A DNA stretch of 64,000 nucleotides from Desulfosarcina sp. BuS5. GTDB lineage: Bacteria > Desulfobacterota > Desulfobacteria > Desulfobacterales > BuS5. The notes under the pieces were generated by a model, which searched no databases, had not been told where the DNA came from, and worked only from the letters and a program-made list of their open reading frames with translations. Below, in pieces: positions 49,404 through 56,066 of this stretch (its first letter is position 1; each line of letters starts with the position of its first letter). The position numbers were made by a program, and so were the translations under genes. The DNA lies in the NCBI RefSeq assembly GCF_028752835.1, contig NZ_CP087952.1, positions 124,001 to 188,000 of the forward strand, in the 5' to 3' direction.

Positions 49404-50260
49404 TTACCCTGGAAAAGTTTTAAAATATATCTCTGCCGGGGTCTGGTAATCCAAAGATTGATGGAGTCGTTCATTATTGTAAAAGCCAAAATATTCTCCA
49501 ATGTTTTGAATAGCCTCCCTGACGGTCTCATAATTGTGAAGATAAACACGTTCATATTTCACGGTACGCCAAAGGCGCTCTACGAAAATGTTATCCAGAG
49601 CACGGCCCCGGCCGTCCATGCTGATCTTCACATCGGCTTTTTTTAAAACGCCGGTAAAGGCATCACTGGTAAACTGACTGCCTTGATCCGTGTTAAAAAT
49701 CTTAGGTTTTGCAATTTTTAAGGCACCCTGTAAGGCTTTTATACAAAAATCCTTATCCAATGTGGTTGAAAATTCGTAGCTCAGGACATACCGACTAAAC
49801 CAGTCTATCACTGCTACAAGATAGATAAAACCTGAATTCAAACGGATATAGGTAATATCCGTTGACCACACCTGGTCAACTTGCTCAATGGAAACGCCTC
49901 GCAGCAAGTATGGATAAATTTTATGCTCTTTTGATGCTTTGCTCAAATTTGGTTTTGGATATATAGCTTCAAGTCCCATAAGCCGCATCAAACGTCTTAT
50001 TCGTTTAGGATTAACAGTGTGCCCTTGTCGCTTTAATACGGCCGTCATTTTTTCAACACCGTAGAACGGATATCGGGTATATTCTTCGTCTATCAATCGC
50101 ATGAGAGCCAGGTTATAGCTCTCATCTTTGCAGGATTGATAGTAATAGGTTGATCTGTTTATTCCCAAAAGATCACACTGGCGCATTACCGGTATCAAAG
50201 AATGATTCGGCTCAATGTATTGACGCTTTATATCAATTGAGAAGGTTAGATTTTTTTTTT
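49404..50260 (-). CDS. IS3-family transposase OrfB (DDE integrase part)
   Basis: The ATG-initiated frame is 264 aa (49404-50198), but the frame is open back to the A10 run at 50251-50260 and normally is made by frameshifting from OrfA. HTH_21 region, then rve integrase core with catalytic Asp in STDITYI, Asp in NTDQGSQFTS and Glu in NIFVERLWRTVK, 35 residues after the second Asp as expected (D,D35E). It looks intact. Confidence 0.93.
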
Positions 50261-50523
50261 AGCCAGTCCAATTCGACCTTTAATTGGCCGATTTGTTGGT
50301 AAAGCTCCGCCTGGAATTCTTCAGCGTCTTTTTCTTTTTTTTGACGCTTTTTTGAAAATATATCGGGCAATTCTTCTAATAGACGCTTTCGCCATTGATT
50401 TATTTGATTTGAATGAACTCCATATTCACTAGATAGTTGAGAAATCGTCTTTTCCTTTTTAACCGTTTCAAGCGCTACTTTAGCTTTGAATGATGCACTG
50501 TAATTTTTTCGAATTTTACCCAT
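50233..50523 (-). CDS. IS3-family transposase OrfA
   Basis: 96 aa helix-turn-helix protein that binds the IS ends: YSASFKAKVALETVKKEKTISQLSSEYGVHSNQINQWRKRLLEEL, then a leucine-zipper-like LYQQIGQLKVELDWLKKK. It ends within and just past a run of ten A (minus strand). The OrfB sense frame joins one base further on (+1), as KKNLTFSIDIKRQYI. SD AAAAAGGAGG precedes the ATG. Confidence 0.93.
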   Translation of the reverse strand: MGKIRKNYSASFKAKVALETVKKEKTISQLSSEYGVHSNQINQWRKRLLEELPDIFSKKRQKKEKDAEEFQAELYQQIGQLKVELDWLKKKSNLLN

Positions 50524-50601
50524 TAATGAGCCTCCTTTTTGTTGATCAGGATATACTCATTTTACACCTTAAACAACTGTCCAGTTTTTGGGGAGTATTA
50601 T

Positions 50602-50805
50602 AGTTAACGGTTGAAAAATACAGCGGGTTTCGGTGGATTCGCTTCGCTTAATCCACCCTACAAACTTACGTTGCTCTTGAACCGTAGGGTGGATTAAGGA
50701 GCGTAAGCGACGAATCCACCAAAGTAGCTGTCCCGCCTTACGTTGATGGCCTGAGATTCAATTTATAAACAGGAAATTATGCCGCTTGTAACCGTGAACG
50801 GTTAC
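50602..50805. mobile_element. Family 2 element, right 204 bp of the interrupted copy
   Basis: Base for base the same as 6626-6829 as far as I can compare by eye, ending with the 17-bp terminal repeat TAACCGTGAACGGTTAC. The left 30 bp are at 48564-48593, separated by the IS3 element. Confidence 0.9.
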
Positions 50806-51036
50806 TCTTGCCGGATGTTTTGATTGCCGGAAGAATTACAACACAATTCCCCCAAATTCCCTTCCATACGATGACCACCAAGCGTAACCAAAAACAGCAA
50901 AAAGCATTCGATTTGCTCCAGACGATACGTGTGTAGACAGTACGATCGCATCAAGGCGAATTCTAACAATTTGTATTGACAGGATATTTGTGCTTTTTTA
51001 AAAAGGGAACTTCAGATTAAAGGATGTATGTTGAAG
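50806..51036. other. Intergenic, nothing recognised
   Basis: No gene, hairpin or repeat seen between the family-2 element and the terminator of the following minus-strand gene. Confidence 0.4.
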
Positions 51037-51076
51037 AAAAAAATGACAAACTGTTTATTAACAATAAACAGTTTGT
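51037..51076 (-). terminator. Intrinsic terminator of the fused DUF4258-YgiT gene
   Basis: A perfect 14-bp stem (ACAAACTGTTTATT at 51046-51059 and its complement at 51063-51076) with a 3-base loop. On the minus strand it is followed by CA and seven T. The stem starts at the first base of the stop codon of the gene. Confidence 0.8.
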
Positions 51077-51657
51077 TATTGCTCATACTTCAATACAAAA
51101 ACCTCTTCGGTTCCTCCAAATCTATCCTCCTCAATAAGACGGTTGATTTTTTTTGAGGCCTTAGCGGTAATATATTTTTCACCGCATTGCATGCACAGAC
51201 CGGCCGGAATGTTCTTGACCACATAAAGATTTCCTTCCAGGCGATAATCGAAATTGCCCACCTTGACCTGTTTTATCTTACCTCCGCAAAAAAAACATTT
51301 GTTTAAATTTTCACCCATACCCTTACCCCCCTCTTTAACTCTGTTTACGGGATCTTTCCACATCGGACGAGCCGGAACATAGGCAAAAAGAATAAGCAGC
51401 CAGCCGTCTTGATCATCAGCGCACATAACATGGATCGGCTTTTCTCCCGCATAGCCAAGCAATAGAGCACAGGCTCCCTTTTCGGGGTGCCTGTGGATTT
51501 CGATTATCCTGCCATTTGCGATGGCATCCTCAATCTCACGGATGGTCACCTTTTTGGTCAAAAAGTCCCTGATAATATGTTCAGATATATGATAATCGGC
51601 GGCCTTTGTCTTTTCCTTTATCCATTCGATCCCTGGAGCATCATCGGTTGATATCAT
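51076..51657 (-). CDS. DUF4258 - YgiT zinc-finger fusion protein
   Basis: 193 aa. Residues 1-110 match DUF4258 (ISEHIIRDFLTKKVTIREIEDAIANGRIIEIHRHPEKGACALLLGYAGEKPIHVMCADDQDGWLLILFAYVP), a small toxin-like fold. Residues 115-193 match YgiT/MqsA-type zinc fingers: CFFCGGK ... GLCMQCGEKY with four cysteines, then ASKKINRLIEE. These are usually two neighbouring genes. AGGAAATAGTT before ATG 51657 is an adequate SD. Toxin-antitoxin function is inference from the domains. Confidence 0.82.
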   Translation of the reverse strand: MISTDDAPGIEWIKEKTKAADYHISEHIIRDFLTKKVTIREIEDAIANGRIIEIHRHPEKGACALLLGYAGEKPIHVMCADDQDGWLLILFAYVPARPMWKDPVNRVKEGGKGMGENLNKCFFCGGKIKQVKVGNFDYRLEGNLYVVKNIPAGLCMQCGEKYITAKASKKINRLIEEDRFGGTEEVFVLKYEQ

Positions 51658-52093
51658 AACTATTTCCTGTCGAAATATCCTTATGGCTCATCTTTGGATA
51701 GCTTTAAAAAATATGGGATGGTACCATTCGTTGTGATATATACAAAATATTTGTGGGAACTATCTTTGCATTTCGGTATGTTGCTTGCTGAATTGTTCCA
51801 AATAGGATACATGGCAGCAACTCAACCAAAACAATTATGCTGTCATTATAATCCACAAACAACTCATTCAGCTATCACATAATGGTAACCATCCCAAAAA
51901 TGGTCAATTTCGTTTAAGTTCATCGTATAAATAAATGAAAAATTCTTAGTGTAGTACTAAAGCTTTAGCGTATGCCGAATTTTGATGCTAAAGTATAAGT
52001 TTGGTACTTATAAATCTAAAGGCCATAAATTGCAATTATTTAATTGCCCTGAACATCAATATATATTTCCAAAGAAATAATTTCACTGGATTT

Positions 52094-52252
52094 AGGGTTC
52101 GCTCAAAAATAAATTAGCAATTTTAAGTGTTGAGGCGCCTGTCTGGCAAGGCGCGAAAGCTTAGGAATATCAAGATATTTCTGAGCTTTCGGAACGTAGC
52201 CAGACGGGATGCATCGGCGCTTAAAATGTAAAGTTATTTTTGAGCGAGCCCT
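52094..52252. mobile_element. Palindromic element family 3
   Basis: Nineteen-bp terminal inverted repeats AGGGTTCGCTCAAAAATAA and TTATTTTTGAGCGAGCCCT differ at one position. The interior is one long imperfect hairpin (TTTTAAGTGTTGAGGCGCC pairs with GGCGCTTAAAA, TCTGGC with GCCAGA, AGCTTAGGAATATC with GATATTTCTGAGCTT). No ORF. Single ends of the same family occur at 5693 and 26366. Confidence 0.75.
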
Positions 52253-52269
52253 TAGTTTAATTAATAGTA

Positions 52270-52477
52270 TCAGGCTGCGCCCACATCCTTTTTAAATTGC
52301 TCAAAACCGACCTCTTCTATAACCATCCCTAATCTTACAGCTTTGGGGTGCTGCCGGTACCGTTCTGCTATTCCCCTAAAGCCAGGGTCTCATCTGTACC
52401 AAGGCCATCTGCAATAAGGCTGCCAATCGCCGGTTGTGATGCGGCTTTGCCGCCGGCCAGGACTTTCCACCCTTTTT
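52270..52477 (-). pseudogene. Partial duplicate of the sulfite reductase 3' end
   Basis: Nearly the same sequence as 53681-53890, the last 70 or so codons of the small sulfite reductase gene, beginning at its stop codon. Scattered base changes and a 4-bp deletion (TTCCCCTAAAGCC against TTCTGCCGATCAAAGCC) break the frame. No upstream part is present. Confidence 0.85.
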
Positions 52478-52512
52478 CCCTCGCTCCCAGGCTCTGCCTG
52501 GAAACGAGGGTT
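52478..52512. repeat. REP-like hairpin
   Basis: CCCTCGCTCCCAGGC / GCCTGGAAACGAGGG form a long imperfect stem with a TCT loop. It sits exactly at the broken border of the sulfite reductase duplicate. Confidence 0.55.
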
Positions 52513-52693
52513 ATAAAATAACTTTTTCATATTGCCCCCATTTTCCCCCATACACTTTTCCCATGTGCGTGTTGTAACTTCTCAGAAATTTGGGGTAACG
52601 ACAGGGATGATCGAACTTCTTGAGAGTTTACTGCGTGTTATGCTTGCTGTCTGCAATTACTTTGTAAAATAACACCAAGATACCAGATGTAAT

Positions 52694-53157
52694 CTATTCG
52701 GACTTTTTCCCTGCAGCAACAATTGGTCTGGTCTCAATAATATCAAAAATTACAACATAGGCATTCGGTTTTGACTTTTCAGTGTCTTTAGCTTTACGAT
52801 CAACATTAAAGGATTGTTCCCATCCAACTGTTTCCCCACCTGCTCTTTCCTGTAGATAAACCGGATTTCGAGATCTTTCCATAAAATTCATTTAAGGTAG
52901 AAGCGGTGGCCTTTGACCTGAAATCCCTTAGCACCGGCCGCCGGTAAAAGAACCAAGCACGATGCATATGGATTTTCTTTTATATTCGCTAAAGACCTTG
53001 ATGTTTCTTTGAGAACAAAGGAAACTGTGTTTTTCTCGGTTAGCAATGCAGAGCCAAAAACAGCAACATCAGTTTCACCATTTTTATTTGCCGTGCTTAA
53101 TATGTTTATTCTGTTTTTGTTGGTCAATACTTCTTTTACTTTATCATTTAGTTCCAT
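52694..53157 (-). pseudogene. Pyridoxamine 5'-phosphate oxidase-like protein, frameshifted
   Basis: The N-terminal frame (ATG 53157, SD AAGGGGGG, stop at 52888) reads MELNDKVKEVLTNKNRINILSTANKNGETDVAVFGSALL...YASCLVLLP...GHRFYLK, a flavin-binding split-barrel (PPOX) protein of about 89 aa. A second frame (52891-52694) begins in an ATGA overlap and ends with NAYVVIFDIIETRPIVAAGKK, which is the usual C-terminal end of the same family. The normal protein is about 135-155 aa in one frame, so a -1 shift at 52888 has split it. Translational coupling of two pieces is less likely. Confidence 0.65.
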
Positions 53158-53200
53158 TTTTCCCCCCTTCTTTTTTTGGCTTCCCATGAAGAAAGCATTA

Positions 53201-53244
53201 GAAAAAGGTGTTAAAAAAATGTAAATATTCCCCTTTTTAACACC
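53201..53244 (-). terminator. Terminator after glycyl-radical domain gene
   Basis: GGTGTTAAAAA (53207-53217) and TTTTTAACACC (53234-53244) form an 11-bp stem; on the minus strand it is followed by TTTTTC. Confidence 0.5.
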
Positions 53245-53263
53245 CCTTAAAAGCAACGCCAAA

Positions 53264-53527
53264 TTAAAGTTCCTGAATTGTTCTTGCGATAATTGTATCT
53301 TGTGTTTTTTTGTTAAGTCCTACAAACTGTGCGCTGTAACCTGCAACCCGGACGATCATCTCTTCAAAGTCCTCTGGTTTTTCCTGAGCAGCGAGCAGTG
53401 TTTCATTATCCACAATATTAAACTGAACATGATTAATTCCAAGATCGCACCAGCTTTGGATATAAGCATTCCAGGCGCCAATGCCCTTCTCACCGACTAA
53501 TTTTATTGTACCATTATTTAATCTCAT
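53264..53527 (-). CDS. Stand-alone glycyl-radical C-terminal domain (GrcA-like)
   Basis: An 87-aa protein from ATG 53527, chosen for the GGAAAGGAGAAC SD; the open frame goes to 53563. It consists almost only of the C-terminal domain of glycyl radical enzymes: NIVDNETLLAAQEKPEDFEEMIVRVAGYSAQFVGLNKKTQDTIIART. The glycyl radical residue would be Gly63 in RVAGYSA. E. coli GrcA (YfiD, 127 aa) rescues pyruvate formate-lyase cleaved by oxygen; this one may do the same for a different enzyme. No full-length enzyme or activase is in the window. Confidence 0.85.
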   Translation of the reverse strand: MRLNNGTIKLVGEKGIGAWNAYIQSWCDLGINHVQFNIVDNETLLAAQEKPEDFEEMIVRVAGYSAQFVGLNKKTQDTIIARTIQEL

Positions 53528-53680
53528 TTTGTTCTCCTTTCCCTGATAAAAATTAAAAGACACATGTAAAGTTGTTCAACGACTTGATTGTTTAGCGAAA
53601 AGTTTCAACGCCTCCAATCTTTTCAATAAAAGTTCCCAAATGAAAAACTGTTTCTTAATAATAAACACCTTATAAAATGC

Positions 53681-54349
53681 TCAGGCTGCGCCCACATCCT
53701 TTTTAAATTGCTCAAGACCGACCTCTTCTATAACCACCCCTAATCTTACAGCTTTGGGGTGTTGCTGGTACCGTTCTACTATTCTGCCGATCAAAGCCAG
53801 GGTCTCATCCGTATCAAGGCCATCTGCAATAAGGCTGCCGATCGTCGGTTGCGAGGCGGCTTTGCCGCCGGCCAGAACTTTCCACCCTTTTTTTTCACCC
53901 ACAAGGCCAAGATCCTTGATCCAGGACTCGGCGCATGCATTTCTACACCCCGAAACACCTATTTTAAACTTGGACGGCATTTTTGTTCCGTGATATAATT
54001 CATCCAGCTTCATCCCAAGTCCAACCGCATCCTGCTTACCAAGCTTGCAAAAAGTTGTGCCCGGGCAAAACTTGATGCTGCGTACGCAAAGGCCCACCGC
54101 CGCGCCGGGTGATAATTCCAGATCTTTCCAGACATTATCGAGATCTTCTTCCTGAAGCCCCACAATGGCGACCCGGGAGGCGCTTGTCAGCTTTATAGCG
54201 GCGGCATTATATTTATCAGACACATCAGCAATCTTTCTTAACATTTCTGGTGTGCATAAGCCTCCCGGTATATGAGGTACAATTGCATAAGTTTGACCAT
54301 CTCTTTGCACCAGGGCTCCCTTTTCCAGCAAATCTTTCTTCTTCTCCAC
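53681..54349 (-). CDS. Small low-spin sulfite reductase (siroheme, 4Fe-4S)
   Basis: 222 aa from GTG 54349, preceded by GAAAGGAGAAAAAAAA; the open frame goes on to 54385. It matches the compact monomeric low-spin sulfite reductase known from Desulfovibrio vulgaris (about 218 aa). The siroheme/4Fe-4S motif is CPGTTFC (Cx5C) and CRNAC (Cx3C), with the N-terminal ferredoxin-like repeat (GGLCTPEMLRKIADVSDKYNAAAIKLTSASRVAIVGL). Its physiological role (sulfite or nitrite reduction) is not settled even in known organisms. A fragment of its 3' end is duplicated at 52270. Confidence 0.9.
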   Translation of the reverse strand: MEKKKDLLEKGALVQRDGQTYAIVPHIPGGLCTPEMLRKIADVSDKYNAAAIKLTSASRVAIVGLQEEDLDNVWKDLELSPGAAVGLCVRSIKFCPGTTFCKLGKQDAVGLGMKLDELYHGTKMPSKFKIGVSGCRNACAESWIKDLGLVGEKKGWKVLAGGKAASQPTIGSLIADGLDTDETLALIGRIVERYQQHPKAVRLGVVIEEVGLEQFKKDVGAA

Positions 54350-54912
54350 TTTTTTTTCTCCTTTCTGCCGTTGATAATTGGTCACAAAAAAATCACTTTA
54401 TACTATTTTTTTAATTGATATATCGTATTTAACTATCAAGAAACATGCCATGATTCGGAAATATTTTAAAAACATATAGAATTAATATTGATAACAAATA
54501 GTTATGGGAGGATCAGAGGTGTGATTTCAGATCAACCAACCCCAAGGCCGGCAATCATCTCAAGGCAAATATGTATCGTGAAGCAATTATACACTAACAG
54601 TTTAATATCATAACATTATGTTGTCATAAAAAAATAAGGAAAATTTGTCGGAATATTTCAAAACAACAGATTACAGGTGCAATATTTTTTACGAATCTAA
54701 ACAGTCTTTTTCTTTTTATATTAAATAATTATATCGGGTACCAGGTAAGGTGAAGGGGTGTCGGGGGCTTTGAAAAAAATGTCGCAACAAAAGTGTCTCA
54801 ACTTAGCTATGAAACATAAGCGTTTCATGAAACGTATTAATTTTTTTGTTGAAAAGGCGATGAAAGAATATGACGCACAAGTGCAACACACCCCTTTGTT
54901 TTTTTGCGTCGG
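54350..54912. other. Intergenic region upstream of sulfite reductase
   Basis: No gene visible in about 560 bp. It should contain the promoter of the sulfite reductase gene. A perfect 14-bp palindrome CGTTTCATGAAACG lies at about 54822-54835, upstream of nothing obvious and downstream of the truncated permease gene. Otherwise nothing to report. Confidence 0.4.
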
Positions 54913-55458
54913 TTAAAAGTTTTTATTTCTCCATACCGTGATAATTCTGCAAAACGGTTTTACAGATATCAAAACAATAATTACTGTCCCGGCAATCTGC
55001 AACCACAGGGGAAGCATCTCGGATGCTTTTCCGATAATTGCCTGGGGAGATATATTCATAATAAGGTAAATTTGATCAATCACCAGGCCAAAGGTAACTG
55101 AAAAGAGGGCAATCGTCAGCACCGGGTCAAGCAGGGCATAAGAAACGGCAATTGAGTCAACCCCGGATTCCGGTGTTGAAATCAGGAAAGCAGTTGTTGC
55201 GCCGCTATTGGCCCCTTGTCTTTTTAGTGACACCGCGGCAGGTAAAACACCGCATGAACAAAGCGGAAGGGGAATCCCCAGGAGCGCAGCTTTTAAGACA
55301 GAACTGAAACGCCCTTTTCCAAGATGCTTTGAGATTGCTTCAGGGCTCAGGCAGAGACTGAACAGTCCGCTGAAAAGAAGCCCCCCAAGGATATAGATTG
55401 CTGAATCAAGCAGAAGACCCGTGGTAGAAGCACATACTTTTATAAGAAATTCAATCAT
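54913..55458 (-). CDS. SO_0444-type metal efflux permease, apparently C-terminally truncated
   Basis: 181 aa, multi-pass membrane protein of the ArsP-like permease group (SO_0444 family, proposed Cu/Zn efflux). The N-terminal half has the hallmark PLPLCSCGVLPAAVSLKRQGANSGATTAFLISTPESGVDSI. The usual second half (another pore-like repeat, total about 350 aa) is missing; the last 50 residues look like two final membrane helices. Truncation or a natural half-size transporter are both possible. It lies 15 bp after the arsR gene in the same operon. Confidence 0.8.
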   Translation of the reverse strand: MIEFLIKVCASTTGLLLDSAIYILGGLLFSGLFSLCLSPEAISKHLGKGRFSSVLKAALLGIPLPLCSCGVLPAAVSLKRQGANSGATTAFLISTPESGVDSIAVSYALLDPVLTIALFSVTFGLVIDQIYLIMNISPQAIIGKASEMLPLWLQIAGTVIIVLISVKPFCRIITVWRNKNF

Positions 55459-55473
55459 TGAATTACTCCGTTT

Positions 55474-55854
55474 CTATTCACGTATATGGGCAAGACCTAT
55501 TTCAAGAAGCTCCTCCACATGCTCGTCATCTAATGAGTAATAAAGAATCTGGCCTGCTCTTCTTTTTTTTACAAGGGCAAGATCCCGGAGCCTCCTTAAT
55601 TGATGTGATACGGCCGACTCTGTCAGGCCCGTAAATGCAGCCAAATCGCATACACACATCTCATTATCACTGAGAGCCATAAGCATTTTCAGGCGTGTGG
55701 GATCTCCCAGCATCTTGTACATCATTGACATAACTTCGAGTTCTTTGAAGGGAATGGCTTGTTGTTTTGCATACAAAACTCTCTCGAGATGAATCATGCG
55801 CACATTGCAAAGGTCTTTGTTTATCCGATTTTGAAATTGTTTTTTTTCATCCAT
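55474..55854 (-). CDS. ArsR/SmtB-family metal-responsive repressor
   Basis: 126 aa winged helix protein: MMYKMLGDPTRLKMLMALSDNEMCVCDLAAFTGLTESAVSHQLRRLRDLALVKKRRAGQILYYSLDDEHVEELLEIG. The alpha3 motif CVC (ELCVCDL-type) and the C-terminal DDEHVEELLEIGLAH helix match the Zn/Cd-sensing SmtB/CadC group. It should repress itself and the permease. A promoter with an overlapping palindrome lies just upstream. Confidence 0.93.
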   Translation of the reverse strand: MDEKKQFQNRINKDLCNVRMIHLERVLYAKQQAIPFKELEVMSMMYKMLGDPTRLKMLMALSDNEMCVCDLAAFTGLTESAVSHQLRRLRDLALVKKRRAGQILYYSLDDEHVEELLEIGLAHIRE

Positions 55855-55870
55855 ATTGATTTCCTGTTAT

Positions 55871-55919
55871 TATATTTGAGCATATGTTCATATATAATAT
55901 AAACCTCAAACATTGTCAA
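55871..55919 (-). promoter_or_regulatory. arsR promoter with overlapping operator
   Basis: On the minus strand TTGACA (55919-55914) and TATATA (55896-55891) are spaced by 17 bp, a near-consensus sigma-70 promoter. An imperfect palindrome TATATGAACAT-ATGCTCAAATA (about 55875-55897) covers the -10 and start region, as in SmtB/ArsR 12-2-12 operators. Confidence 0.7.
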
Positions 55920-56066
55920 CCGCTCTAGAACATTCCAATCTAGAAGGTTCCATTTTAGAAGGTTCCACGGTTTTTTTTTATACATTAAGAAAAATATCCC
56001 TTGATTTTTTGTTCATAAAAAGAAATAAAAAGAACATCTTTTTTTTACCATCACCTTCTTTATTAT

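Follow-up and report, generated by a model that had tools for sequence, protein, structure and literature searches.

Small free proteins that copy the C-terminal domain of a glycyl radical enzyme (GRE) are known from GrcA (YfiD) of Escherichia coli and Y06I of phage T4, both of which act on pyruvate formate-lyase (PFL). Oxygen cleaves GREs in their activated state at the radical glycine, as shown for PFL and benzylsuccinate synthase (BSS) in the available portion of PMC11194802. According to the available sections of PMC8683613, rescue by a spare part has been validated only for PFL (with YfiD and T4 Y06I), while spare parts for other GREs are raised there as an open possibility. The same sections describe residues 61–127 of YfiD as a structured half that duplicates PFL 693–759, including a barrel strand spared by oxygen, and some 60 extra N-terminal residues as an aid to binding and activation. 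Excerpts from four papers (PMC8683613, PMC11194802, PMC12358834 and PMC10239695) form the literature basis of this work.

Here we describe a free-standing glycyl radical domain (GRD) encoded by Desulfosarcina sp. BuS5. Like GrcA/YfiD and Y06I it is a short protein that stands alone and reproduces, in its C-terminal part, that of a GRE, with the RVAGYSA-type motif intact; unlike them its partner appears to be not PFL but an X-succinate synthase of the (1-methylalkyl)succinate synthase (MASS) type, and unlike GrcA/YfiD its host is of the sulfate-reducer type. The window referred to below is the whole stretch of DNA that was analysed, 64,000 nucleotides of contig NZ_CP087952.1 (positions 124,001 to 188,000).

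A free-standing GRD gene

The gene and its signals occupy the following positions of the window:

53264–53527, minus strand: free GRD gene, 87 aa, ATG at 53527; PF01228 only, radical glycine Gly63 in RVAGYSA
53533–53540, minus strand: Shine-Dalgarno-like AAAGGAGA, preceding the ATG of the free GRD gene; kept in a second species
53201–53247, minus strand: hairpin followed by a T run, terminator-like, just 3' of the free GRD stop; -13.4 kcal/mol, z -3.9 against shuffles

The gene is real. In a profile search the 87-aa protein scores 63.7 bits with Pfam PF01228 (Gly_radical; cut-off 22.2 bits, E 2.6e-17); this is its sole domain, and the GRE barrel is absent. A sequence-only reading had described the protein as essentially the RVAGYSA domain by itself, and an intact open reading frame with a single Gly_radical domain bears this out. 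A second species of the genus (MAG Desulfobacterales bacterium isolate G11; L004, G002 contig 60) has an ortholog with 84 of 87 residues equal; start, Shine-Dalgarno sequence and stop (L065:1352–1615) are as in BuS5, with three amino acid differences. The Gly_radical match and this ortholog together rule out a chance ORF.

Other origins were considered. The stop-to-stop frame around the gene measures 103 aa and no upstream open frame joins 53264–53527, so that the gene is not the tail of a longer one. Nor is there a truncated full-length GRE directly upstream: the gene at that position encodes a siroheme protein, and a tblastn search with the whole MASS-type GRE of this genome (described below) against window positions 50001–56000 matched only its final 79 residues and, at chance level (E 9.5), one further piece. 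A truncated enzyme gene at this place, combined with a lack of stand-alone homologs, was what the sequence-only reading had named as evidence against itself; neither was found. One scan of viral contigs gave no relative, which argues against a viral origin.

The hairpin 3' of the gene is kept in the second species, though it is absent from the results of a simple terminator scan. Together with the T run it suggests that the gene is probably transcribed singly. The gene is very probably functional.

The partner enzyme

The BuS5 genome (4.18 Mb, two contigs, 97.27% complete) was searched with profiles: the Gly_radical model matched two places and the PFL-like model one. The second Gly_radical place is a complete enzyme:

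C1:1309529–1312021 (L064:6530–9022): full-length PFL-like GRE, 830-aa catalytic subunit, about 1.13 Mb from the free GRD

Its best match in the PDB is MasD of MASS (9o8u_A; 738 bits over 820 residues), with both the catalytic cysteine loop and RVAGYSA aligned; benzylsuccinate synthase follows with 398 bits. Upstream lie four small ORFs, two matching MasE (E 1.7e-8 and 4.7e-5), one MasC (E 0.0087) and one, marginally, MasB (E 0.87); downstream are two PNPOx-like proteins and a GRE activase, together with a MoxR-type ATPase and VWA proteins (both of these read from the sequence). A second complete activase (L077:6970–7965) is located about 18 kb upstream of the GRE, giving two activases for one full GRE and one free GRD. 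Ahead of the ass-type cluster are two genes which, judged by reading their sequences, encode a histidine kinase and an NtrC-type regulator, and beside the regulator gene, at about L064 position 5194, is a sigma-54-like -24/-12 site (TGGCAT-N5-TTGCT). No such site was seen upstream of the free GRD gene, and the two upstream regions share only short, mostly AT-rich words. The region ahead of the free GRD gene does contain a palindrome.

The genome also encodes one class III ribonucleotide reductase (NrdD). This was rejected as the partner: the free GRD is instead 90% identical to the MASS-type GRE over 80 residues. We infer that the partner is the MASS catalytic subunit, a MasD-like protein whose predicted substrate would be an n-alkane, or possibly another hydrocarbon, and that the free GRD is very probably dedicated to this alkane-activating GRE. 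A full-length DsrA (621 bits) is consistent with the anaerobic host that had been guessed from the window.

The free GRD corresponds to the C-terminal 10% of an X-succinate synthase alpha subunit (MasD, AssA, BssA). Unlike these subunits it has neither barrel nor catalytic cysteine loop, and thus cannot be an enzyme alone. It shares with the GrcA-like class that it is a GRD-only protein lacking a barrel and that, in two species, it reproduces the C-terminal end of a full GRE encoded in the same genome; its scores fall short of the NCBIfam cut-offs for GrcA (TIGR04365, 34.3 against 170 bits), GrcA2 (NF008341, 47.4 against 145) and GrcA3 (NF038360, 55.7 against 158).

Identity to the GRE C terminus and selection

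Comparison of C termini, a check proposed in the sequence-only reading, concerns a single PFL-like GRE and gives a simple result: residues 22–87 of the free GRD are the same as the 66 residues at the C-terminal end of the GRE (66/66). Over this block the two BuS5 genes differ at 19 nucleotides, of which 19 are synonymous and none nonsynonymous. The second species, where the two genes are on separate contigs, again shows 66 of 66 identical residues, with 15 synonymous and no nonsynonymous differences. For single changes placed at random in this stretch, the expectation is 21% synonymous and 79% nonsynonymous. Residues 8–21 of the free GRD differ from the GRE and vary little between the species. 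Two residues within the block, 24 (Gln/Arg) and 45 (Leu/Ile), differ between species, and at both the two copies agree within each species. The dN/dS ratio between orthologs is about 0.085 for the free GRD and 0.065 for the full GRE. Protein identity accompanied by synonymous change only, in two species and with matched replacements, indicates that the free GRD is held to the sequence of its own GRE by selection.

Gene conversion perhaps contributes to the identity. The 243 sites compared include 24 of paralog type, five of species type and one of swapped type (species against swapped, P=0.11). Species-type sites make up 5 of 11 informative sites in codons 21–62 versus 0 of 18 elsewhere (Fisher P=0.0039, for a boundary chosen after looking), and a run test for gene conversion gave P=0.034 in the second species and P=0.78 in BuS5. 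With the gene-conversion tests mixed, either patchwise conversion or matched selection is likely to lie behind the shared changes.

The same data bear on the idea that the free GRD is a regulator or decoy, competing with the GRE for binding to the activase (or to the delta subunit) and so limiting activation. Copying of the activase-facing surface of the GRE would also be expected of a decoy, and two complete activases are encoded near the GRE; yet a decoy has no need of 66/66 identity that extends to barrel-lining residues, nor of an intact radical glycine. We regard this role as improbable.

Fold and boundary of the identical block

An AlphaFold2 model of the free GRD (31 sequences) reached a pLDDT of 78.7 and a pTM of 0.56, with residues 1–6 low. 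Among its Foldseek hits MasD came first (E 3.5e-4) and YfiD thirteenth (E 2e-3; TM 0.72 normalised by YfiD); MasD is also the best PDB match by sequence. The model shows a GRD fold resembling the GRDs of MasD and YfiD. By PDB sequence match, residues 30–86 align with YfiD 69–125, which makes Tyr22 the equivalent of YfiD residue 61: the homologous block begins at the same residue in both proteins. Since the identical block starts at this position, the segment kept unchanged coincides with the one that a spare part would need to insert. The proteins differ ahead of it, the N-terminal part comprising about 60 residues in YfiD and 21 in the free GRD, and recognition may therefore differ as well.

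Genomic surroundings

The free GRD gene is flanked by two genes on the same strand:

53681–54385, minus strand: NirB/sulfite-reductase-type siroheme (NIR/SIR) domain protein, 234 aa, upstream neighbour of the free GRD
about 52697–53157, minus strand: PNPOx-like flavin-fold gene, 3' of the free GRD; frame-broken near 52890, intact in the second species

Both the sulfite reductase and the flavin protein said to adjoin the GRD are therefore present. In the second species the siroheme gene is near the free GRD but separated from it by a DUF4258/YgiT gene; partnership with a sulfite reductase was accordingly rejected, and gene neighbourhood in the two species gives no sign of a functional link. The DUF4258/YgiT-like gene has apparently moved: in BuS5 it is 3' of the GRD (window 51076–51657), and in the second species it is at L065:625–1203. 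Beyond it in the window are IS3-like transposase ORFs (49404–50523). At 54913–55458 a 181-aa frame matches model positions 3–106 of 351 of an SO_0444-type Cu/Zn efflux transporter, which is truncated or frame-broken. No oxygen-stress genes were noticed in the neighbourhood inspected.

What breaks the frame of the PNPOx-like gene is a single base by which an A run differs from that of the second species; the gene may truly be decaying, or the sequence may be in error here. PNPOx-like genes, single or paired, are found 3' of ass-type GREs in different lineages (L010, L011, L018, L021, L064 and L066) and also in the decayed cluster L069 described below, and the three flavin-fold proteins of the BuS5 genus are 22–33% identical pairwise over their aligned parts. 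The free GRD and the flavin-fold gene that follows it may thus be a pair inherited from the terminal (3') part of an ass cluster.

Such an arrangement is what would remain of a second, decayed ass cluster, and the free GRD could be its functionless 3' end. A decayed cluster does exist in another genome (G039 contig 17; L069:3–2455), where an activase, two flavin-fold genes and a MasE-like gene persist. There, by contrast, all that is left of the catalytic gene is a GRD piece with a broken frame and 51% identity across 47 residues. The BuS5 gene has its own ribosome-binding site and hairpin, kept in two species, and 0/19 and 0/15 differences are nonsynonymous where 79% would be expected at random. 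That the gene is a mere remnant is very improbable.

Distribution

In a homolog search, 1 of 30 loci (L004, from the second species) was a complete short gene, the other 29 (L007, L011, L015 and L033 among them) being longer frames or frames cut by a contig start, with L025 and L032 as shortened frames. Matches were obtained in 36 of 58 genomes, with frames below 200 aa in G000 and G002, in contig-edge pieces of G049 and G007, and in the broken G039 piece; among 291 sampled genomes of the order, 49 matched at 1e-18 or better, with frames below 200 aa in G000, G002 and, at contig edges, G049, G608, G631 and G648. Two samples of the phylum (395 and 385 genomes) provide the best matches listed rather than a census. 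Short frames were inspected in G438, G386 and G286 from the first and in G076, G275, G236, G080 and G139 from the second: those of G386 and G286 sit at contig starts, and the one of G438, which is clear of contig edges, encodes a C-terminal GRE fragment of 189 aa. A stand-alone GRD of the BuS5 type was not found beyond the two species in the 58 genomes, the 291 genomes of the order or the phylum matches listed. In a third species of the genus (G001, 83% complete) neither the GRE nor the free GRD was found.

A split GRE elsewhere in Desulfobacterota

In one genus of another family the GRE itself is divided (L079:1553–4183, G076 contig 285; L080:5817–8445, G275 contig 12). A 754-aa core ends before the GRD and, after 51 bases, is followed by a GRD gene (104 aa) that has a separate ribosome-binding site; in L079 an activase gene comes next. 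Core and GRD match consecutive parts of TIGR01774 (3–705 and 693–785). The separate GRDs of the two genomes, which represent two species, agree at 99 of 104 residues (dN 0.020, dS 0.16), and the G275 core has a frame break midway along it. One strict search of open-licence literature, itself weak evidence, returned no published split GRE. A core that lacks a GRD, adjacent to a GRD gene, implies that the latter encodes a subunit and not a spare part. The likeness to BuS5 is that a GRD is carried on a separate polypeptide in Desulfobacterota; the differences are that the core has no GRD of its own, that the GRD gene is its direct neighbour, and that the GRE is of another type.

Split enzymes lend some weight to the view that the BuS5 protein is a constitutive trans subunit or exchange pool, always seated in part of the MASS population (in proteolysed subunits, for example) independently of oxygen. 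The 66/66 identity and the purifying selection fit this view equally. The BuS5 GRE, on the other hand, already includes a full GRD, and the gene for the free one is 1.13 Mb from the cluster rather than inside it: we think a standing role in trans unlikely, though not negligible.

A candidate spare part for MASS

The best of the four readings, and one that we consider reasonably probable on the sequence evidence, is that the free GRD is a GrcA-like spare part for the MASS-type GRE of its genome. The absence of both GRE and free GRD from the third species speaks for it; the finding of the stand-alone GRD in two species only, its short N-terminal part, the lack of a promoter motif in common with the ass cluster, the mixed gene-conversion tests and a setting apart from oxygen-stress genes in the neighbourhood inspected speak against it. 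By analogy with YfiD, oxygen meeting activated MASS would cut the chain at the radical glycine, and the free 87-aa GRD would dock into the damaged catalytic subunit, replacing the lost tail. The docked GRD would then gain a glycyl radical on Gly63 from one of the cluster activases, and activity would be restored without resynthesis of the 830-aa subunit. The tail of the delta subunit contacts the GRD in MASS, and recognition of the free GRD might perhaps proceed through this subunit. A spare part for a GRE other than PFL had already been proposed from the window; that proposal gains a cognate enzyme, the only PFL-like GRE of the genome, whose last 66 residues are matched under strong purifying selection, and loses the association with sulfite reductase. 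In the open-licence literature we recognised no report of a stand-alone GRD for alkylsuccinate or benzylsuccinate synthase.

Taken with the split enzymes, these observations allow the tentative suggestion, about which we keep considerable doubt, that in anaerobic Desulfobacterota the GRD is an exchangeable cartridge: here a spare kept identical by selection and patchwise gene conversion, elsewhere a GRE split into core and cartridge. If so, repair by exchange would extend past PFL and past facultative anaerobes. The locus offers a testable spare-part candidate with a named partner in anaerobic alkane activation – among the hardest reactions of the GRE family – in a genome of the sulfate-reducer type. 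Should the spare-part reading hold, the free GRD could serve as a tool for radical loading of X-succinate synthases, and an anaerobe would be seen to invest in the repair of an enzyme otherwise lost for good to oxygen.
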